A DNA stretch of 64,000 bases, from NCBI GenBank assembly GCA_021464245.1, contig JADCRB010000018.1, positions 1,240,001 through 1,304,000 of the forward strand, given 5' to 3'. Below the pieces are notes generated by a model, which worked only from the letters and a program-made list of their open reading frames with translations, was not told where the DNA came from and ran no database searches. Both the position numbers and the translations under genes were made by a program. Shown here piece after piece: positions 11,801 through 64,000 of the stretch. The stretch is from Carallia brachiata. Its lineage: Eukaryota; Streptophyta; Magnoliopsida; Malpighiales; Rhizophoraceae. Numbering within the stretch: position 1 is the stretch's first letter; every line of letters starts with the position of its first letter.

Positions 11801-14800
11801 AACAATAGGGCAGATGATGGCATGTAGGTCACCACTGAAGCTCCTTATGATTAAAGCTACTGCTCTTCTTTTTGCCGGTTTTTTTTTTTAATCCTTCCAC
11901 CTGATGTGGCAATCCTCAGGTTACTCCGTAGGTTAAGTTCTCACCTTGTTTTTGTACAAGGAAGGCATCATCATGAGAAAAAAAAATTCTAATCTGTTCT
12001 GCTAATGGAATTTTGAGAATTTGGACGAAGTACTTCCTCTTTATATTTTCAAAAAGCTAGAGTAATTATTGTTGGATTAGACAGCTTTAAATTAGATCAT
12101 AAATACCTTTGTTCCTTATGGAGAGATGCTCAACCTTTAAGGGAAATATGTGCCATCTTCTGTTTTTGGCCATGCTCAAGCACATTTGCTTTTATCTGAT
12201 TCTGCATGTAATTATTAATGGTGCCAAACCTTCTTTTATTTTATTTTTTTTTCAGGCTTCTCAGGGACATGATCGATGGGTGAATGAGTTTGCCGCTGAA
12301 AGAGAGCTAAAAGACTCGGTTGATGATCAGTGGGTAAATGAATTCTCAAAGTTGAATGTTAATGACTGGGCAGAAGAATTCGGGAGGCAAGTTGATGGTG
12401 GGGCATTGGGGGACAGTGCGTCTGATAGTTGGGCAAATGCATATGATGAGTGAGTATGCTGGACACATTTGAGAAATTATTTTTTGACATCTATGAATGA
12501 TGAAATGAAGCATTCAGAAGGAATGGTTGGCATAAAGGATAATATGGTGCATTGCTTAGCATTTGCCCTCGTCATCATGATGATATTGAATAATCGAGGC
12601 GCTCCTTGTACCATGCCATGACTAGTGTCAGAAAATTGCTATCCATTTGTATCAAATTATTTTGTAGTGGAACTATCTGTTCAACCCAGCAATATGGGTT
12701 TGCCTTTGCTCATCATTAGCTCTTTGATTTTCTGAAGGGATTCAAATGCCCATCTTGTGCTACCATTTTTGTTTCTTTTTTTTTTTCGGTCTACTAATGA
12801 GAAATTATCTCTGGCAAACATGTACAGGTTCCTAAATGAGCAAGCAGCTAGCAGGCAGCAATCAGATGCCTCAAGGGGAGTCTATGTGTTTTCTGATATG
12901 AACCCCTATGTTGGTCACCCCAATCCATTAAAAGAAGGCCAGGAGCTGTTCCGCAAAGGTCTTTTGAGTGAAGCTGTGCTTGCTTTAGAAGCTGAAGTAT
13001 TGAAAAACCCTGAGAATGCTGAAGGTTGGAGGTTGCTTGGAATAGCACATGCAGAGAACGATGATGATCAACAGGTATATTAATCATTGTCCCAAAATTA
13101 TTAGGTTCTGATAAATGAAGTTCTTTTCCTTTCCTTATAAGAACTTATTGGAGGAACAGCTCACTACTGGGTTCACAATTGCATTTTTGCTTTGTTGTCA
13201 CTTCTGTTCCTCCAAAAGCAGTCATGGCATGCCTTTTCCCAAGCTTTTCTAAGTAATGAGCATTACGATTATTGACAGGATTGAGCTTCAATTTGTTTGT
13301 TCTCCTCCGAATGATATCAACTTCCCAAAATTTTTTACTTTTCTATATTTTCTAGTTTTTGAAAATGCAATATGCTTTTAATAATTGGATGTTTCTATCA
13401 CAAAAAAAAGAAAAGCTTGATTACTTATGATTCTCTCTCTCTCTCTCTTTCTCTCTCTCTATCTACATATATATATATATATAATGTGTATGTATTGAAT
13501 GCATTAGGTGTGGTTATTTATTTGGCTGTCATTGTATCTTGATTGGAAGGGTGAGTCTTTGTGTAACGTTAAGGTTAATCCATTGTGACCTAGAGGTCAC
13601 GTGTTCGAATCACGGAAACAACCTCTTTGTGAAAAAATTGGTAGGCTGCGTACATCTGACCTTTCCCTTGACCCCACAGTGTAGGGTGCACTTGGGCTTT
13701 TTTTTATTATTATTTTTTTGATCTCAATTAGTTCGTTTACCCAAGATTTGTAAAGTAATAGTTGCTCAAATTATATATTTCTGTTATTTTCATGTGTTAC
13801 AGTACCTTTGTTTTATGTGTAAATTTTTATGATGACCATTTCTTGTGTAGACTTCCAAATGCATTGAACTGAATTTGTACTTTTCGTAGGCCATTGCAGC
13901 AATGATGCGTGCACAGGAGGCTGATCCAACAAATTTAGAAGTGCTTCTTGCCCTTGGCGTGAGTCACACAAACGGTCAGTTAATAGTAATTCATAATTTT
14001 GCAAGTAACATATACAAGCTTTAAGTCGCAGTGTGTTAAATCTCTTATGACAATGTTTACTGCATTAATTTTTATTTTTATTTTCTTACAATTTTTAAAG
14101 TGTTATTAAAATATGGAAATATCTATATCCTCAGCAGTTCTTGAATATAGTTTATACTGATAAAAATATTATAACGCCTCTGTTAAACTGCAGAGTTGGA
14201 ACAGGCAGCTGCTTTAAAATATTTATATGGATGGTTACGCAATCACCCGAGATATGGAACACTTGCCCCTTCAGAGATTTCCGAATCTTTGTATTATTCT
14301 GATGTAGGTGTTCACAAAAATGTTTAAATTTCTTTATTTATCTATCTATCATGATGCATTGTGGTAAGTTATGATCTACTGGAGAAATGAAAAATTCCAA
14401 ATTTCTTTGCCGAAAAATTCCAATTTCTTTGCTAGGCAATTATTCTAGGATAAAAGTATAATTTATATTTTTATTGTATTCTGGCATTTTATCTTCTGTT
14501 TACATATGTTTTGGAAGAGTTGTGAAACTCCCATTTGTGTAGAGAAGGCCATACAATTATTTTACTGTGAAAGGGCACAAAAGATAATCATGCAGGCTCA
14601 TGGTACAACCCATGGCACGATCAAGGGTTTTACATTCCTATATGTACTGCAAGGACTCAGGTCATACAACTGTCGATGTGTTTTGGATTGATTCGACAAA
14701 TTAATGAATGATGTCACTTGGTTTTTCGAAATTAAGTGGAAGCAGGACATTGTAATGCTGTTTTCCTGAAATAGTAATTCTCTCCTGTTTCATTTTGTTT

Positions 14801-16242
14801 TGCACGGTCAATTATGTTCATAGTTGTCTCTTGGTGTAGATTTTAGGTGTTAACAAGAACAGATGTTAAAATATTCCCGTCTTTCTTCCATGATCTTCTG
14901 ATATTTATCTGGCTTTTTTTTGTGTGTGTGTGTGTGTGTCCGAATGCTCACAAGATTTCTTTTACTTATTTGCTGATTTATTTATTGACATGCAGGTTGC
15001 TAGATTATTTAACGAAGCTGCTCAGATGTCGCCTGAGGATGCAGATGTGCACATAGTGTTGGGTGTCCTGTACAATTTGTCCAGGGAATATGACAAAGCC
15101 ATTGCTTCCTTCGAGACAGCTCTGAAACTCAAGCCACAGGACTACTCGCTTTGGAACAAGCTTGGTGCAACACAAGCCAACAGTGTTCAGAGTGCTGATG
15201 CTATATTGGCTTATCAACAGGTATAACTCTGGACTTTAGAATATAGTTTCTATATGATCATAAACAAGATATGGTTTTTCTGTTTAATCCTAAATGCTCT
15301 CAAATGTTCATTACTTTGAGTGAACATGGATGTTCTACTTCTCCATACTGTAGTAAGTAGGCTAAAGAGGTGATATATGGAAGTAAATCTTCTGCAATGA
15401 GTGGCAGCCTGTGGCTTCCAGCTTCATTGATTCTGTCTACCATTCTCCTGAATTAAGCTGCTTAATCGCATTGTAGTTCTAGTAAATTTTGTTCGTTTAT
15501 GTCTGAATGCTATTATCCTTTTTTTCCTTTAAAAACCTAGCAGATCTTTGTATTTCTCTGCATTTCATTCCTAATATCTCCAGCACAGGCAGTGGGGCGG
15601 GACTTGGTGGCTTCTGTTTTCATGTTTGAGTAGATTGTTCTCTCCATCATTTGTCGGTGAAATTGATCTCATGTTTATTCATCTCTCTATTGTTTCCAGG
15701 CACTTGATTTGAAACCTAACTATGTTCGTGCATGGGCAAACATGGGAATCAGCTATGCCAACCAGGTGGCCAATTTGTTGTCCTTTTGTTTCCATCTAGA
15801 AACTTGGTCTTACAATTGTTCCATCACAGATAAACTAGTCATACTTGGTAGATTTAGAGCCTATGAAGATAACAAAGATGTGGATTTGGTTTTTTGTCTT
15901 TTGTAATAATTTGAACTAACTACCAAGTGACAAAAATCTTGTCTCTAGGGTATGTACGAGGAGTCGATTCGCTACTATGTCCGTGCACTGACTATGAATC
16001 CGAAGGCGGATAATGCCTGGCAGTATTTGAGAATTTCTCTAAGGTATGCTGGTGGCACAAGAGAATAGATTTCGTTAAGGTGTATTAATGGCTCAACAGA
16101 ATATTTTTTATGTATTTTCCATGTAAATCAGCCAAGTGATGTGTGCCTGTTATCCGTCTGCAGCTGTGCTTCAAGGAATGACATGCTGGAAGTTTGTGAT
16201 TCTCGGAATCTTGACATTCTCCAGAAGGAGTTTCCACTGTAA
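7255..16242 (+). CDS. PEX5: Peroxisomal targeting signal 1 receptor PEX5
   Basis: Fifteen exons join in frame with consensus splice sites: 7255-7386, 8391-8522, 8645-8807, 9218-9411, 9572-9823, 10262-10381, 11361-11525, 12256-12449, 12828-13074, 13890-13974, 14194-14303, 14996-15220, 15700-15765, 15949-16043 and 16164-16242. The CDS is 2259 nt and encodes 752 aa, close to Arabidopsis PEX5. The N-terminus MAMRELVTGGAACAVPG carries the conserved cysteine (C13) that is ubiquitinated for receptor recycling, and then a poly-Ser tract encoded by a (TTC)n microsatellite. Residues about 143-200 (LRSFIDSSHGAIPFRPAPLP) match the PEX7-binding region. Nine WxxxF/Y motifs for PEX14/PEX13 docking follow in residues about 208-450: WIGEF, WAQAF, WVSQF, WATEY, WADEY, WVNEF twice, WAEEF and WANAY. 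Residues about 480-740 form the TPR domain that binds C-terminal SKL-type signals on cargo in the cytosol. No lesion is seen. Confidence 0.96.
7302..7331 (+). repeat. (TTC)n coding microsatellite in PEX5 exon 1
   Basis: A run of TTC triplets encodes the serine stretch that follows C13 of PEX5. Its length can change without shifting the frame, so the poly-Ser length is likely polymorphic. Confidence 0.85.
8856..8920. repeat. (CA)n / (TG)n compound microsatellite in PEX5 intron 3
   Basis: A (CA)n run of about 38 bases is followed within a few bases by a (TG)n run. The two halves are complementary and could form a hairpin in the pre-mRNA. It lies in the intron just after PEX5 exon 3 (ends 8807). 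Confidence 0.9.
13435..13483. repeat. (TC)n and (TA)n microsatellites in PEX5 intron 9
   Basis: A (TC)n tract is followed by a short (TA)n tract in the intron between PEX5 exons 9 and 10, just upstream of the SINE. Confidence 0.85.
13549..13712 (+). mobile_element. tRNA-derived SINE (Au-like) in PEX5 intron 9
   Basis: The block starts GGGTGAGTCTTTGTGTAACG and contains a pol III B-box-like GTTCGAATC at 13603-13611, preceded by GAGGTCAC. It goes on through CGGAAACAACCTCTTTG and GGCTGCGTACATCTGACC and ends in a T-rich tail after GGGTGCACTTGGGC. This order matches the widespread Au-type plant SINE (tRNA-related head, conserved CTGCGTAC core, short T tail). It lies in sense orientation in the 13075-13889 intron and does not touch splice sites. 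Target duplications could not be assigned with certainty. Confidence 0.75.
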
Positions 16243-33735: not shown

Positions 33736-34053
33736 TGGAAGACCCATCATACTCGTTTGCAGGAGTTTGCAGAATTCAAAGTGATTTGAAGAGAACTAGA
33801 CCGCAGCAATGCAAAGGATGGCTATTGCTAAGCAGAAAAATTAGACCTTTCATGGTTTCCACTTTCCTGGAAGCTACGCATGCATTATTACTGGCTTTGA
33901 AAAGAGGACAATTAAATTTTAATATTTTAATTAATATTTTTATTAAAATAAAAAATAATAATTTTAAAATAAATTTAATAATTTTTAAAAAATAAAAATA
34001 ATGATTGTTAATTTTTATTTAAAAAATTATTAATTTTAATTTTAATTAAAATA

Positions 34054-34058
34054 CTAAA
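34054..34058. repeat. 5-bp target site duplication, left (CTAAA)
   Basis: CTAAA directly before the 5' LTR. The same five bases follow the 3' LTR at 38607-38611. Confidence 0.85.
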
Positions 34059-34873
34059 TGTAAACACAGAAAAAAAAAAAAAAGAGGCAATCTAGAAGGT
34101 CAGCTTTTAGAAAAAGAAAAAATTCAAAGTTAGGCACCGGCGAGAAGAAAAAAAAAAAGAAAAAAAAAAGGTCAGCAAAAGGTTGGTGGCACAGTACCAC
34201 ACAGTGCCACCCAAAAAGCATATAAATAGGCAGAACCAATGGCCATTTGCCAAGAGGAAACAAAAGACAAATTGGAATTGCAAATCCAATTTGTAATTGT
34301 CTCAAAGAGAAAACATTATCTTCCATACGTTTTATATTTTGGGCATATACACTTTAAACGCCATCAAGTGCGATATTCTAAAGTAAAGGCCTAGAATATT
34401 TATCATACACAATTTTCAAAAATATTTTGGATATACACTCTCCAGTCGTCTTAAATCAGAATCTGAGAGAGAAAATATTCAAAATATCAAAATACTGCAA
34501 ATTCGACTGAGATTAAACCTCATACGGCCCTCAGCAAAATCCAGGCAGTTCATCCGAGAACAAGTCCCTTCGACCTTCGGTGAAATTAAGTCAGATCGGC
34601 TCAGATCAGGCCTCTGCGGTTCTTAACCGTAGTCAAAACGTCCAAATCAGATCCAGTTTCAGTCTACCCAGTTCAAGAAAAAGCTGTGGAAATTATTTCT
34701 GTCAAGATCAAGCTCGTGCAGCCCTTGACGGAGTCAAAAACAGGAGCATTAATCGGAGGGTCTACTCAGAGATCGACCCCACATAAATTTCTTTTTATTT
34801 TACAATTTTTTATTGTAATTTGTTTATGTATTTTTTAATCTAACTGTTACAGGTTAGAAATTTACCCGTCACA
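34059..34873 (+). repeat. 5' LTR of copy A
   Basis: Direct repeat of 37766-38606, starting TGTAAACACAG and ending TTTACCCGTCACA. A TATA box (TATAAATA, 34221-34228) marks the likely U3 promoter. It lacks about 30 bases present in the 3' LTR near 37967-38000. Confidence 0.9.
34221..34228 (+). promoter_or_regulatory. TATA box in 5' LTR
   Basis: TATAAATA in a conserved context (AAAGCATATAAATAGGCAGAACC). The 3' LTR has the same motif at 37919-37926, and copy B's LTR has TATAAAA at 63259-63265. Confidence 0.6.
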
Positions 34874-34878
34874 AAATT

Positions 34879-34896
34879 TTGGCACGCTCGGTGGGA
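34879..34896 (+). other. Primer-binding site of copy A
   Basis: TGGCACGCTCGGTGGGAC lies just inside the 5' LTR and starts with TGG, as expected for a site complementary to a tRNA 3' end. The tRNA was not identified. Confidence 0.6.
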
Positions 34897-35644
34897 CATC
34901 TCTACCTCCCATCTTTTACTCCTTAGAAAAAAAAAAAAAAATTTAGTGGCACAACGGCCATTTCATGGCCTATGGGTCGTGAAATGACCAATACCAACAC
35001 AACCCTAGAAGACAGGAATCCAGTGCATCGGTGGCACTAAAGATGAACAAGACTATCGCCATCAGTAAAAGGACGACTGCTCAATTGCCTGCATTAATCA
35101 TCCTACTTGAGTACGTAGGTTCGCAAACTCGTGCATGGACACAGTTCTCATCCAACTGGACTAGTAGAGGGACACAAGTACCGACTTTGCGACAAGCTCA
35201 CTTCCAACTGGGACGGGCTATACCTGGTTCAAGAAGCCTACATCAATTACGCTTGTATGCTGTCAACGCATCCCGACCTGGTTCGATCAAACGGTAAACT
35301 TCTAAAATTTACTGTGTAAAAAAAAAAAAAAAAAAAGCCAAAAAAAAAAATGTCTGAAACTTATGTGCAAGTTCAGAACCCTTCTTCAAAATTCAAATCT
35401 AGATTCGGGGGCAAATCTCAAATCCCGACTCAAATTCAAAGTCAAACATAAACTCAGCTAAACTCGGGCTCAAAGCCCAAATCTAAATTCCAAATCCAAA
35501 TCCAGATTCGAGGGTAAAACTTAAACCCTGAATCAAAGTCCAGCTCAGCAGCTCAATAGCTCACCAAACAGTTCAGCAGCTCAGCAGCTCAACAGCTCAC
35601 CAAACAGCTCAACAGCTCAACAACTCAGCAGCTTAACAGTTCAA

Positions 35645-35920
35645 CACTCCTGTCTCGCACGAGTATAAAAGGCGAACAGCTCAACAGTTCAACACTCTTG
35701 TCTCGCACGAGTATAAAAGGCGAACAGCTTCACAGTTCAACACTCCTGCCTCGCACGAGTATAAAAGGCGATAATCAATCCATCACGATTCAGCACTCCT
35801 GCCTCGCACGAGTATAAAAGGCGACACCGCAATTCAGCACTCCTGCCTCGCACGAGTATAAAAGGCGAACAATCCAACAAACCTGACTCTTGACCCGCAC
35901 GAGTATAAACTGTGAACGGC
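35645..35920 (+). repeat. TATA-containing minisatellite in copy A
   Basis: Five tandem units of about 44-53 bp share the core ACTCCTGYCTCGCACGAG followed by TATAAAAGGCGA. A sixth ends TATAAACTGTGAACGGCCC, and a seventh like it lies apart at about 36056-36092. Each unit holds a TATA box next to the short palindromic half-sites CTCG and CGAG. The array ends about 100-270 bases before the ATG of the captured homeobox ORF. Confidence 0.9.
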
Positions 35921-36191
35921 CCAATAGCAAAAAAAAAAAATAAAAAAAAAAAATCGGAAGTCCCGATCTGAAAGCCCAAGCGAAAGTCAAAGCCCGAACA
36001 CAAAATCCCAAGTTCCAGACACAAGTCCAGAACCCAAATTCAAAATTCAATCCAACTCCTGGCACGCATGAGTATAAACTGTGAACGGCCCAAAAATATA
36101 AAAGCAACGGAGGGTTTGAGTCTGAAACTCAGCATTAGTCTCAACCAATCTTCACCACAAGCCAGACTTTTGCTCCTCTGCCACAAGAAAG

Positions 36192-36815
36192 ATGGAACCA
36201 GTTGCAGAACCTCAAGACAAGGGAGAAGAAAAGTCACCCCGCACAAGGTGGCAACCGACCATGGCACAACTGCAAATTTTGGAGGAAGTCTTCCACAACA
36301 ATGGAGGTATTATTCCTAATGCATCTCAAATTTACTAACTTGTCTCACGATTGCGCCCGCTCGGGGCAATCGAAGGAAAAAATGTGTTTTATTGGTTTCA
36401 GAATCGGAGAAACAGGAAGAAACCAGCACTGAGAACTGCTTTTTCCAAAGAACAGTCTGTCGTTCCGATAGTAGATCCCACCGGTACAGCTTCGCCCTCA
36501 AATGAAGCAGGTCCGAGTTCTTCCACTGCAATGGTCTCTCCACGGTATGTTCATCAAAGCCGTAGCCCATGGGAGCATACATGCTGGTCCTGGTGGTCTT
36601 ACGGAGTCAGCCAAGGGTTCATCCCTCCTAGATACTTAAGTCTAGGAGGAATTTTTCTAGCAGAAATGAGTTATTCCGGCGAAACTTTGCCTCTCTTTCC
36701 AGAATATTCTGGCAGCATCAACCAGCTGGAAAGCGACGTCGACGTCGACGTCAATATCATCGGCCCACCAGACGAGGTCGAGCTTGACTTGAAGTTGCGC
36801 CTCGGGCCCCACTAG
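36192..36815 (+). pseudogene. Captured WUSCHEL-related homeobox gene inside retrotransposon copy A
   Basis: One continuous frame of 208 codons from ATG to TAG, interrupted only by a TAA at codon 49 (36336-36338). Domains in order: a WUS-type homeodomain at residues about 17-78 (RTRWQPTMAQLQILEEVF, then SRLRPLGAIEGKNVFYWF and QNRRNRKKPAL); a Ser/Pro-rich linker; a WUS box TLPLFP at 165-170; an acidic stretch ESDVDVDVNI; and a C-terminal EAR-like LDLKLRLG at 198-205. The presence of all three WUS-clade motifs shows that a whole coding region was captured, and there is no intron in it. WUS-clade proteins are nuclear transcription regulators that maintain stem cells in meristems and recruit TOPLESS co-repressors through such motifs. 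The copy in the second element has CAA at the TAA position, so the stop was gained after capture. Without readthrough, the product would be a 48-aa stub. Confidence 0.85.
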
Positions 36816-36839
36816 GACGGCCGACAAGATAAGGTGCAA

Positions 36840-36915
36840 CGACTTTGGCAGCACACGGTAACGACTTCTGCAGCACACGGCAACGACTTCTGCAACACAC
36901 GGTAACGACTTTCGT
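36840..36915 (+). repeat. Short tandem repeat after the captured homeobox ORF
   Basis: About four degenerate units of CACACGGYAACGACTTYTGCAG. A shorter version is present in copy B near 62400-62460. Confidence 0.7.
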
Positions 36916-37765
36916 GTCACGCGTCAGCCGCTGCCTCTTTTGTCTCTTATGCAGGAAAGGGACGTGGATGACCCTACTCGATTCTGCGTACCTTCTTTTT
37001 GAATTTTCAAAAAAAAAAAAAAATCTTTATCGTATGTATATATATATCTTGCATTCCCGAGTTGTAATACTCACCCCTCAGCTCTTCTTTCTCAAAAGAA
37101 AATGGCTAGTCTCTACGCTTGTCTGAGGAAATTCTTTGATCAAGAAGTTGGAGGCGCACGAGCTAAGAAAAGAAGGAGTAGTCTTCTTTGAGGGATCCCT
37201 AAAAGCCCTCGAAACTCAGTCTCCAACGCCATCGGTATCATGGAGTTCCAACTACTCTCCTTAGTTCACATCTACCACAGAGGGATGAGAAGCTGCAATT
37301 ATCCTAATCTTCCTTTGGATGCGGCGACGTATAGGGAGGTTCCAACTACTCTCCTTACATCGAAGCAGACTTGGGAATCATCACTACAGTCAGTCTCTCT
37401 ATGTGCCGATTTTGAAGTTTCGAGGTGCTGGGCCTTCCTCTTTGGGAGGTTTAAGTTTTTTCCCTACCGGATCATTTCCACTAGAGCTTTAGAACTTCAA
37501 AGAACCTTTGCCAGCCTTTGCGAGCCATAGAAGCTCAAACGCACCTGGAGCCAGAATGTCAATTTTTATATTGGCTGGGCTGCTAACTTTCTCAAGATCG
37601 TATCGGGTTCCTATTGCGATCCAACAACAGTAGGTATGGTCAGAGATAGAAGATTTCAACATTTAATGTTCATCAGGACATCTCAAGTTTCAAACTGGAC
37701 TTCAAAACTCGGTGCGGATCACGTCTGTAAAGTTCTTCCTTACCGACCCTTGAAGTGGGGGCATT

Positions 37766-38606
37766 TGTAAACACAGAAAAAAAAAAAGGAGGCAATCTAG
37801 AAGGTCAGCTTCTAGAAAAAGAAAAAATTCAAAGTTAGGCACCAACGAGAAGAAAAAAAAAAAAAAGGGTTAGCAAAAGGTTGGTGGCACAGTACCACAC
37901 AGTGCCACCCAAAAAGCCTATAAATAGGCAGAACCAATGGCCATTTGCCAAGAGGAAACAAAAGACAAAAAAAAAACAAAGGACGAGACAGCAACAATTG
38001 CGAATTGGAATTGCAAATCCAATTTGCAATTGTCCCAAAGAGAAAACATTCTCTTCCATACGTTTTATATTTTGGGCATATACACTTTATACGTCATTAA
38101 GTGCGATCTTCTAAAGTAAAGGCCTAAAATATTTATCATACACATTTTCAAAAATATTTTGGGTATACACTCTCCAGTCGCCTCAAATCAGAATCTGAGA
38201 GAGAAAATATCCAAAATATCAAAATACTGCAAATCCGGCTGGATTAAACCTCAAACGGCCCTCAGAAAAATCCAGGCAGTTCATCCGAGAATAAGTCCTT
38301 TCGACCTTCGGTGAAATTAAGCCATATCGGCTCAGATCAGGTCTCTGCGGTTCTTAACCGTAGTCAAAACGTTCAAATCAGATCCAGTTTCAGTCTACCC
38401 AATTCAAGAAAAAGCTGTGGAAATTATTTCTGTCAAGATCAAGCTAGTGCAGCCCTTGACGGAGTCAAAAACAGGAGCATTAATCGGAAGATCTACTCAA
38501 AGATCGACCCCACATAAATTTCTTTTTATTTTACAATTTTTTATTATAATTTGTTTATGTATATTTTTGAGTCTAACTGTTACAGATTCAAAATTTACCC
38601 GTCACA
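37766..38606 (+). repeat. 3' LTR of copy A
   Basis: Direct repeat of the 5' LTR, preceded by the polypurine tract and followed by the target duplication CTAAA (38607-38611). It differs from the 5' LTR by scattered substitutions and by a roughly 30-base extra segment. Confidence 0.9.
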
Positions 38607-38611
38607 CTAAA

Positions 38612-39634
38612 ATTTAGTAAATTAATTTTTTTTTTTATTGAAAAATGTAAAGTTTGACCTTGGGCCATCTAGACCTTCAGGTGCTTTGTTATTGGTACAT
38701 TTGGCATATACTTTTACTAGTCATGCTGTGTGACCCGACCCGAATAATTAACAAAAGAAAAAATGTAAAGGGGCAGGGAATTGTGTCCCGGCGTTTAGCC
38801 TAATGGCTAGCGAAAAATTATCGAAAAATATTTTTTTTTAATAAAACAAAAGTTTAAGATATTATTAAATATATTTAAAATTATATTAAATACTACATAT
38901 TGGCAATATAATTTTTTTGGCTCCAAAAAAAATATTATTATCAAATGAAAAAATAGTAGATAATTAGACATTCTGATCATACTTGTGACTATATTGTATT
39001 AATTTTTTTTAAAAAAATTAAGATTTAAGAATAACACTAATTATATTTAAAATAATATTAAATATATTTAAATTTTGTTTAAAAAAAAACAAGAAGGAGT
39101 ATAGCCAAAGATTTGGCCATGTAACCATTCCCTATGAAGTATCAACATAGTTCATTCTCCATTTCTATAAAAGAATTGAGTTTTTTTTTTCTTTTTTTAA
39201 TTCCTGTTGTGCATGCTATTCTAATTCCCACCAATTTAATGATGGAGATAGAACTCACTATTTATTAGCTTTCAACCAGTACTAAAACAACAATGAAGTG
39301 AAGAATGAATATTTATCATTGCCTTACCCATTCAAATGTTAAATATTGTCCTTTTTTTTAGATTATAATTTTCAGATGTTAGGATAGAACCATCTCACTA
39401 ATTAAGACAACAAGAGAATTATTGACAAGACTCTGCACTTGTTTTTTCTTTTTTTTTTTTTTCGGTCAAATGCTTGTTTAAACTTACATTTTGTACAATC
39501 TATTTACCTCGCACAAATATAGAAAAAAAAATGAAAAAATTATATACTTGGTTAAATTTAAAATAATTGCAGAAATTTGCAAAAAAAAAAAATTGCAGAA
39601 ATGTCATTTTAAGTCACCTAATCAGACCAAAATG
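38612..39634. other. Intergenic, AT-rich
   Basis: No gene is recognised. It contains two versions of an AT-rich phrase (TTAAAATAATATTAAATATATTTAAA-like, broken here by substitutions) that also occurs at about 25945-26000 and 44860-44895. Confidence 0.45.
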
Positions 39635-47533: not shown

Positions 47534-48548
47534 TGGCACCCTCCTTCTACTTACCAAGCCAAAACAGCTATGCTGTGGAAAGTGAAATGAAAGACTCAGA
47601 AATTTATAGCGAGTGTGAAAAGATTATCTCGAGCCTGCCAAGCCATGGAGGATGGAATGCGGATCTCATCCAGTACGAAGGCTTTTGGTATTGGCCCCAT
47701 CTCGTTGCGGGCACGATATGTCTAAGAAACTGTTCAAGCCTAAGCCAAGTCACATAATTCTGGCTAGCTTCCCAAAATGCGGCACCACTTGGCTCAAGGC
47801 ACTCACTTTTGCCATTGCCAATCGCAGCCACTTCGATGATTCCACCAACCCTTTGCTCAAAGAGTTTTCCCACGACTGCGTGCCCTTTTACGAGCACGAT
47901 TTCATCGACAAAGTGCTGCCTCCCAGGAACCTGGAGCATCCACTCATAGCCACCCACACCTCGTTCAGATCCTTGCCAGAGTCTGTGATTGATTCAGGTT
48001 GCAAAGTCATTTACATATGCAGGGATCCCAAGGATGCATTCGTCTCTCTTTGGCACTTCTGGAGAACGTTTGCCGGGGTGGATCCTCCTCCGGTTAAGGA
48101 TGCCTTCGAGCTGTTCTGCAACGGAGTGTCGTTTTGCGGACCCTATTGGGATCATGTTCTGGGGTACTGGAATGCCAGTTTGGAACATCCTGACAAGGTG
48201 CTGTTCGTGAAATTCGATGACATGAAGAAGGACACTCTGTTTCACATCAAGAGAATGGCTGAGTTCATGGGCTACCCTTTCTCTGTGGAGGAGGAAAAGT
48301 CGGGGGCCGTCGAGAAAGTCAAGGAAATCTGCAGTTTCGAGAGCATGAAGAGTCAACAAATTAACAAAAAAGGAGATTTCTTCCCAGTCGCGGCTTTCTC
48401 CGTTGAGAAACAATCATTCTTCAGGAAAGGCAAAGTTGGAGACTGGAAGAACCATTTGACAACTGAGATGGCAGCGCGGTTGGACCAGATCATGGAGCAG
48501 AAACTGGAGGGTTCTGGACTCACATTTGCTGCCTCCTCAGATGCCTGA
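47534..48548 (+). pseudogene. Cytosolic sulfotransferase (SOT) with a one-base frameshift
   Basis: Single-exon gene, as usual for plant cytosolic sulfotransferases, which move sulfate from PAPS to hydroxyl groups of small molecules. The first frame (47534-47757) encodes MAPSFYLPSQNSYAVESE to WPHLVAGTI and then runs to a stop. The rest continues in the next frame from about 47718 to TGA 48548. That part has FPKCGTTWLKAL (PAPS 5'-phosphosulfate loop), IATHTSFRSLP (catalytic His), YICRDPKDAFVSLWHF (3'-phosphate binding) and FRKGKVGDWKNHLT (GxxGxxK). The inverted fragment at 39.7 kb reads ACGATACTGTCT where this copy reads ACGATATGTCT, so one C is missing at 47718/47719. Apart from that, the frame is open to a normal end (about 340 aa in total). 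It may be a very young pseudogene, an assembly error, or a shortened protein from the ATG at 47718 (276 aa) that keeps the PAPS motifs. The substrate is unknown. Confidence 0.88.
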
Positions 48549-60987: not shown

Positions 60988-61071
60988 TGTAAGCATCAAG
61001 AAAACAAAAAAAATTCAAGAGTCAAAATCTAGAATGCAGGACAATCATATTTCAACAACAACAACAGTAGA

Positions 61072-61650
61072 CTTCTGTCTTACACGAGTATAAAAGGCAA
61101 ACAGTTTAACAGCACACTTCTGCCTCACACAAATAAAAAGGCGACAACACGGTTGCAGACTTCTATCTCGCACGAGTATAAAAGACGATAACTCAACAAC
61201 AACAATAAAACACTAATGTCTCGCACAAATATAAAATGCGATAACTCAACAGCTCAATAGTACACTCCTGTTTCGCACAGTATCAAAGACGATGATCTAA
61301 TAATCCACACTCCTGTCTCGCATGAGTATAAAAGGCGAACCGCTCTACAGTAAATTTAAACTCCTATCTCGCACGAGTATAAAAGGTAACGACTCAAATC
61401 TACATTTCTGTATCGCACGAGTATAAAAGGCGAACAACTGAAACATTCTTCTGCTTCTCACAAGTATAAAAGGCGATAGTTCAACAGAACACTCATACCT
61501 CACACGAGTGTAAAAGGCGATAGCACAGTTCAACACTTCTGTCTCGCACAAGTTTAAAAGGCGACAACGCGGTCCAATATCTTAACTCGCACGAGTATAA
61601 AAGGCGAAACGACAATAACAATACAAGACCCAGTTCAAAACTTCTGACCC
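61072..61650 (+). repeat. TATA-containing minisatellite in copy B
   Basis: About twelve units of 40-55 bp, each a variant of CTCGCACGAGTATAAAAGGCGA. That is roughly twice the number in copy A, with more point changes (for example ATATAAAATGCGA and GTTTAAAAGGCGA). Confidence 0.85.
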
Positions 61651-61754
61651 GCATGAATATTCCAAAAATATAAGAGCAATAGAGGGTTTGAATATGAATC
61701 CTTACTTCAAGTCTCAACTTGTTTTCGCTGCAGATAAAACCTTTGTTTCTCTAC

Positions 61755-62390
61755 AACAAAAAAAAAATAAAATCATCTGCAAACGACAGGACAAGGAAGA
61801 AGAAAGGTCACTACGCACAAGATGACATCCAATTTTGGCGCAATTACAAATCTTGGAGCAGTTCTTCCACAACAATGGAGGTACTATTCCTAATACATTA
61901 CAAATTTACCAACTTGCCTCACGATTGCACCTGCTAGGGGCAGTCGAAAGAAAAAATGTATATTTTTAGTTCTAGAATCGGAGGAACAGAAAGAGAGCGG
62001 CGCTGAGAGATGTCATTTCTAAAACACAGTCTGCTGTTCCCATGGTAGATCTCACCAGTATAGTTTCGCCTTCAAATGAAATAGGTCCGAGTTCTACTAC
62101 TGCAATGGTCCTTTCAGCATATTTTGATCAAATCATAACCTGTGGAACATGCGTATTTTTCTTGGTGGTCTTACAGAGTCAGCCAATGGTTCATCACTCA
62201 CAGGTAATTAAGTTCAGAAAAAACTTTTCTAGAAAGAAGAAGTCATTTCGGCGAAACTTTACTTCTCTTTTCAAAATATTCCGGCAGTATCAACCGATCA
62301 GAAGGTTCAAGCAACGTCAACATCATCAGCCCACCGGACAAGATCAGGCTTGACTTGGAGTTGCAAATCGGGCCCCACCAAGACCACTGA
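61755..62390 (+). pseudogene. Captured WUSCHEL-like homeobox gene, decayed (copy B)
   Basis: Collinear with 36192-36815 of copy A. Readable parts are AQLQILEQFFHNNGG, IYQLASRLHLLGAVERKNVY, NRRNRKRAAL and the C-terminal LDLELQIGP. The start ATG is gone, the homeodomain Trp codon is TGA (61823-61825), and the WFQN stretch has two TAG codons (61967-61969 and 61973-61975). A frameshift precedes the degraded WUS box. It keeps CAA where copy A has a stop, so the two copies carry different inactivating changes. Confidence 0.85.
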
Positions 62391-63085
62391 TAAATAAGGT
62401 GTAACGACTTCTACAACATACGGCAACAATTTTCGTGGACTCCTGCTGCACACGAAAGTTTTATGATGAAGAAGTTGGAGGCGCTCGAGCTAAAAAAGGA
62501 AAGAGTAGTCCATTTCGAGGGAACTCTAAAGACTCTCGAATTTCAGCTTCAACGTCATTAGTGTCATGGAATTCCAATTACTCTCTTTAATTTATATCTA
62601 CTACAAAGGGACAAGAAGTTATGATTATCCTCATCTGTTCTTAGATGTGGCGACGTATAGAGAAGTTCCAGCAACTTTCCTTACGTCGAAACAGACTTGG
62701 GAATCATCACCATAACTCGTCTCTGTGCACAGGTCTTAAAGTTTCGTAGTGCTGGACTTTCCTTATGGGGAGGTTCAAGTTCTTTACCTCCTGCATCATC
62801 TTCACCAGAGTTGTTGAATTTCAAGACATATAAAATAACTTTTGCGAGTTATGAAAACTCGACATCAGTTGGAGCCATAACTTCGATTTCTATTGGCTGA
62901 AGAGCTAACTTCCTCAAAATCGTATCGATTCCTATTGAGATCTAACAACAGCTGGATTAGTCAAAACTAAAAATCTCAGGATTCAACATTCATCAAGATA
63001 TTTCAAACTTCAAACTGAAATTCAAAACTCGGTTCGAAGTACGTCCCCAAAGTTCTCCCTCACCAAATCTTGAAGTAAGGGCATT

Positions 63086-64000
63086 TGTAAATATAAAAAA
63101 AAAATTTCAAGAGTCAAAATTTAGAAGGTTGGAAAAATCAAACAAAAAAAAAAGGAGCTAGTTAAGGCCGGTGCCAACCTTTGAAAATTTATTATCAAAG
63201 GTTGGCTACCCACCTTTGAAAAAAAGAGAAGAAAAAAAAAAAGGCTTGTTCAAAGGCTATAAAATGCCAAGGCATAACAACATCTCAAGACCCCAAAAAG
63301 AAAGAAACAAGCCAATCATAGCAAAGTTGCCACAGAAACACGAGGTGGGGAATTAATTTTCGAGGGCCAAGTTTTATAAAAAAAATTTCCCTAAACGTTT
63401 TCATATTTTAGGCAAACGCACTCTGGACACCATTAAGTGTGATCTTCCAGAGTAAATGTTCAAAATATTTATCATCCTCACTTTTAAAGATATTTTGGGT
63501 GTACGCTTTCCAGTCGCATCAAATCGGGATCTGCGAGAGAAAATATCCAAAATATTAAAATATTAAACCTTTGTCTAAGATAAAACCTCTTACGGCTCTC
63601 AGTAAAATCAATCCACTTGAGAACAAGTCTCTACGGCCCTCAACGAAGCTAAACAGTCCGAGTTAAGAATCAGTCTGCCTGAAACCAAACTCATACGGCC
63701 ATCATCGAAATTAGACCATTTCGAACGAGATCAAGCTTCTACGACCCTCATCAGAGTTCTAGCATATCCTGAGATCAAGTCTCAACTCTTAGTAGAATCT
63801 ATTTTCTACAGTTCAAGGACAGCACGCTGTGAAAATTCAACATTTTTTGGTCAAGATTAAGCTCGTGTAACCTTTGACTAAATTACAGGAGTATTAATTG
63901 GATGATCTATCTAAATATTGAACCCCACATAATTTTTTTTTAATTTTCACTTGTAATTTTTATCTGTATTTTTACGGCCTAACTGTTGTAGTGTTGAAAC
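63086..64000 (+). repeat. 3' LTR of copy B, cut by the window edge
   Basis: Begins TGTAAATAT after a purine-rich tract. It shares with the copy A LTRs the TATA region (63259-63265), the GGCAAACGCACTCTGGACACCATTAAGTGYGATCTTC-like segment (here with substitutions) and the CTAACTGTT end. By comparison, only about 15-20 bases of the LTR lie beyond 64000. Confidence 0.85.

Follow-up and report, generated by a model that had tools for sequence, protein, structure and literature searches.

Host gene sequence has been found inside plant long terminal repeat (LTR) retrotransposons in several systems. In the wild beans Vigna marina and V. riukiuensis many WOX copies are present, more than 1000 of them in V. 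riukiuensis, and according to a meeting report they lie mostly within identical LTRs and target duplications (K. Naito, 2023; PMC10714607). In a study of 121 angiosperm genomes, Gypsy LTR elements were found to carry additional domains, namely YgdH (as in LONELY GUY) in two Citrus species, B3 in Aegilops tauschii and a 2-ODD/AlkB-like domain in Phalaenopsis; the section of that study on additional domains names no homeodomain, and since its marker was reverse transcriptase, elements without pol were outside its reach (PMC9289625). The long-known maize element Bs1 holds segments of three host genes, none of them full-length (PMC13317346, PMC7264820), and elements of the Retand lineage have extra frames, mainly antisense and most with TRP28, with representatives that code for gag-pol domains and some that are non-autonomous (PMC11963269). 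Here we describe an insertion at positions 34059-38606 of a 64,000-nucleotide stretch (the window) of Carallia brachiata contig JADCRB010000018.1, a real LTR retrotransposon that lacks gag/pol and holds a captured WUS-type gene. We put at about 85% the probability that a non-autonomous plant LTR family took up a WUS-type coding sequence, which then moved with the family in at least two separate insertions.

The insertion is structurally complete, and its limits match exactly those of the initial annotation, made from the letters of the window, which had also reported the two TG...CA LTRs and the CTAAA duplication. The CTAAA target-site duplication is present on both sides (34054-34058 and 38607-38611, no strand assigned), and between its copies the plus strand contains a 5' LTR of 815 bp with a TATA-like box at 34221 (34059-34873) and a 3' LTR of 841 bp (37766-38606), both with TG...CA ends. 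In a global alignment the LTRs are 95.0% identical over 804 aligned sites (48 gapped columns, Kimura two-parameter distance 0.052); the 40 differences comprise 30 transitions and 10 transversions. With plant rates of about 0.7-1.3 x 10^-8 substitutions per site and year, this divergence would correspond to an insertion age of roughly 2 to 4 million years. Six bases 3' of the 5' LTR is a TGG-starting candidate primer-binding site, TGGCACGCTCGGTGGGAC (34880-34897, plus), which is unique in the window when up to three mismatches are allowed (0.01 matches expected), and directly 5' of the 3' LTR is a G-rich tract, a candidate polypurine tract (37752-37765, plus). The Pfam scan of the internal region, which took in the 39 open pieces with a length of 45 amino acids or more, detected no gag, protease, reverse transcriptase, integrase or TRP28 family, in agreement with the absence of gag/pol noted at the outset. 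Five unrelated Pfam families surfaced in these pieces, all below their curated cut-offs, and an Rfam scan of 33900-38800 gave no match.

The captured frame (36192-36815, plus) is in sense orientation, comprises 207 codons and a terminal stop, and reads from MEPVAEPQ through LDLKLRLGPH. It includes a homeodomain at about codons 16-79, followed in the same frame by a TLPLFP box and an LDLKLRL tail, which fit the definitions of the WUS box and the C-terminal EAR-like motif. An in-frame TAA (36336-36338) occupies codon 49, within the homeodomain, where the WUSCHEL homeodomain has a lysine. The reading frame of this copy is thus not intact, and only by readthrough could the complete protein be made from it. 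The initial annotation had described a full, whole WUS-type gene: the gene assignment holds, with all three motifs present, but "full" does not. With X replacing the stop, the homeodomain was matched by the Pfam Homeodomain family (E 1e-11) and by the solved structures of WUSCHEL (6ry3, E 1.6e-17) and STENOFOLIA (6wig, E 1.3e-14); its halves, taken as separate open pieces, scored 17.3 and 22.5 bits, below the Pfam cut-off of 22.9.

Several features of the homeodomain point to the WUS clade. The stretch after helix 1 is one residue longer in WUS than in other WOX proteins, and the alignment to WUSCHEL 6ry3 is gapless, whereas STENOFOLIA 6wig requires a one-residue gap after helix 1, as did all seven further WOX homeodomains in the comparison set, for which provisional sequences were used. 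WUSCHEL also gave the best alignment score (177), followed by STENOFOLIA (156) and the others (150 or less). Identity alone was dropped as proof of WUSCHEL, since it is 32/62 for WUSCHEL, 32/61 for the WOX3 and 31/60 for the WOX4 of that set; score and gapless alignment are what single out WUSCHEL. The end of helix 3 reads RRNRKK, in contrast to HKARER in both solved proteins, which departs from the WUS clade and is nearer to the QNRR form seen in the WOX11 and WOX13 of the comparison set; this makes a close WUS relative somewhat less likely, or else points to a change inside the element. On the homeodomain comparison as a whole, the donor was likely a WUS orthologue. WUS genes carry introns, and the lack of any intron-like break in the captured frame is consistent with the capture of a spliced transcript. 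A scan of viral contigs with the WUS frame returned 11 pattern matches, none of them a confirmed relative.

A second, decayed member of the same family was found by alignment at 60988-64000 (plus strand), where the window ends. Its order is that of the first element, with a stretch resembling the LTR start, a longer minisatellite (61060-61610), a decayed WUS frame (61767-62381) and, after the 3' internal region, a 3' LTR that starts at 63086 and reaches the window end. The start at 60988 was placed by eye, and the resemblance to the LTR start comprises 50 of 67 aligned positions (61006-61070), partly of low complexity. The two members are about 75% identical in their internal regions, while their LTRs are 63-65% identical over the whole alignment, with many gaps, and 71-79% in local matches. 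The sequence flanking the first element, about 2 kb at either end, has no similarity to the 2 kb upstream of the second, and no other fragments of the family were found in the 64-kb window, which indicates separate insertions and not a local duplication. The WUS region is at the homologous place in the second member, so the capture belongs to the family. An assembly artefact as the origin of the element was rejected, given this second diverged member. The initial annotation had proposed that a family spread the WUS frame around the genome and had missed the second member, which supports both the family and the spread, although the reading frame is interrupted.

Between the two elements the minisatellite is shared, and in the first (35629-35871, plus) it consists of five copies of a 48-bp unit. 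Units with CTCGCACGAGTATAAAAGGCGA, in which a TATA-box-like motif comes after a short palindrome, occur in both elements and in each of the five copies of the first; the 12 units compared were chosen by their match to GTATAAAAG, which makes their conservation partly a product of construction, and only the presence in both elements is claimed. Short CAGCTC(A) repeats (35541-35646, plus) are found at the 5' side of the minisatellite, and a 22-bp tandem repeat of 3.4 copies directly follows the WUS frame (36838-36911, plus). A further TATA-like motif, a putative promoter, is located 95 bp 5' of the WUS ATG (36097-36103, plus), and its counterpart in the second copy reads TATAAGAG. There are ten ATGs between the assumed transcript start in the LTR (34255) and the WUS ATG, which has an AAGATGG context, and none between the 36097 motif and the WUS ATG, so that a short inner transcript is the most likely route by which an open copy would have made the protein. 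The minisatellite had been taken for a promoter in the initial annotation, a role for which the five units of the first element offer support at the level of sequence, in their repeated TATAAAAGG motifs.

These observations suggest a sequence of events in which a WUSCHEL-type sequence was probably acquired from a spliced transcript, when reverse transcription switched templates or read through into it, by a family that presumably relied on a related autonomous element for the gag/pol that moved it. The captured frame lies in sense behind a TATA-rich minisatellite, where a short transcript could make WUS the first reading frame, and both copies are interrupted today. Some points weigh against this account. 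No tRNA was matched to TGGCACGCTCGGTGGGAC, which is a candidate only, and a tRNA gene search of the whole 64-kb window found none. The polypurine tract of the initial annotation is in place, as GAAGTGGGGGCATT precedes the 3' LTR, but it is G-rich and does not consist of purines alone. The second member lacks almost all of its 5' LTR, its 3' end and target duplication are beyond the window, and the WUS start codon is absent from its copy. In simulations of stop codons (2000 runs, substitutions only), a divergence of 0.029 substitutions per site gave a mean of 0.71 stops, with at most one in 84% of runs, and the frame could thus have been open when the first copy inserted; however, at most one stop was also obtained in 40% of runs at 0.09 and in 23.5% at 0.13. 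A single stop is not unusual after longer neutral decay either, and the stop count is therefore no proof of an open frame at insertion.

Among the alternatives, a WUS protein that is or was a working and selected accessory gene of the family, for example one that alters the shoot stem cells that pass on insertions or that recruits co-repressors via the WUS box and the EAR-like tail, appears unlikely. The first copy has kept IEGKNVFYWFQN, TLPLFP and LDLKLRL despite a homeodomain only 32/62 identical to WUSCHEL, but this retention could date from the host gene. The upstream TATA-like motif with a first ATG in good context, and the burst of WOX elements in Vigna, would also favour a selected protein, as would the internal stops, one in the first copy and four in the second with none in common. 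Read in the frame of the first copy, the second contains four gaps, three of one base and one of six bases, besides its four internal stops. Its box (ETLLLFS) and tail (LDLELQI) are altered, and these changes, together with the missing start codon, speak against selection. None of the tests of codon constraint between the two copies was significant: differences by codon position were 46/205, 46/204 and 51/206, transversions were 14/12/10, codons for the same amino acid were 120/202 against 115 under random placement (P 0.15), and new stops were 4 against 6.3 (P 0.22). The WUS part is barely better conserved than the later part (76.7% and 74.6% identity). Since the differences are even across codon positions, selection at the protein level is not shown by the two-copy comparison, and the differences appear to be those of neutral decay, a neutrality that we infer from these counts. 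C to T and G to A changes are over-represented in the second copy (174 vs 90), which fits decay mostly in that copy, so earlier selection could be hidden. By analogy with the cell genes of transducing retroviruses, the family might hold a WUSCHEL-type protein under selection as its own stem-cell factor, which would place more copies in the cells that found the germ line, with the LONELY GUY domain in Citrus and the WOX elements of Vigna as parallels; we regard this as quite unlikely.

Two other explanations do not require a protein of the element. The captured frame might act via RNA, with sense or antisense transcripts or small RNAs affecting the parental WUS gene, an effect of sense or antisense RNAs having been raised in the initial annotation. 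Its position downstream of an LTR and TATA repeats, in sense, is compatible with such a role as far as sequence can indicate, but the homeodomain shares only about half of its residues with WUSCHEL and small RNAs would need a much closer host gene, which makes this very unlikely. That an ordinary host WOX gene or retrocopy came to lie between the LTRs of unrelated insertions is barely conceivable, given that the LTR ends are matched, that the target duplication is common to both sides, and that a second diverged element has the same gene in the homologous position. Uptake of the WUS-type coding sequence by a non-autonomous LTR family, followed by its carriage in separate insertions, is accordingly the reading that we prefer.

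Compared with the known systems, the Carallia element resembles those of V. marina and V. riukiuensis, in which a WOX gene between LTRs with target-site duplications was amplified in a plant genome, a likeness drawn by description, as the report gives neither sequence nor WOX clade nor internal anatomy (PMC10714607). The Vigna LTRs are described as identical, whereas the present element shows 5% divergence between its two LTRs, and the second member is of still greater age. The initial annotation had regarded the capture of a whole WUS-clade regulator as undescribed; LTR-flanked WOX genes had already been told of for Vigna (PMC10714607), which was the sole other account of WOX genes in LTR elements found in our literature search. 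In the parts of them available to us, a Salix paper (PMC7329446) and a cotton WOX paper (PMC5501002) do not describe WOX genes inside LTRs. The Gypsy elements with additional domains are similar in that a host-like domain is present in an LTR family, and YgdH/LONELY GUY and B3 are domains of developmental regulators, but the present element, unlike those surveyed, has no pol and would escape that survey (PMC9289625). Like Bs1 it contains host gene parts in an LTR element, but from one gene, which extends from the start codon to the C-terminal tail (PMC13317346, PMC7264820). Internal tandem repeats and extra reading frames are shared with the Retand lineage, from which the element differs in having neither TRP28 nor gag-pol domains in its 39 pieces (PMC11963269). 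Membership in Retand, as judged by reverse transcriptase and an antisense TRP28 frame, was accordingly not obtained, neither family being found in those pieces; the present family may descend from a Retand-type element.

Gene-like frames were also seen elsewhere in the window. On the minus strand, 17853-22792 matches strictosidine synthase (Pfam PF03088) in two of the three open pieces scanned, perhaps as a tandem gene pair, and on the plus strand there is a long uninterrupted sulfotransferase frame at 47619-48545 (Pfam PF00685, E 4e-73). TPR-repeat pieces, the first below its cut-off, were found at 12736-15223 (plus), and we take them to resemble the peroxisomal receptor PEX5.

An LTR family with a captured WUS-type gene is of interest and has a precedent in the brief report on wild beans. 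Taken together, the Vigna and Carallia cases suggest that elements with a WOX gene are either recurrent or old. In genome annotations, families of this kind would inflate the number of WOX genes, and they would make it possible to test directly whether carrying stem-cell regulators benefits retroelements.

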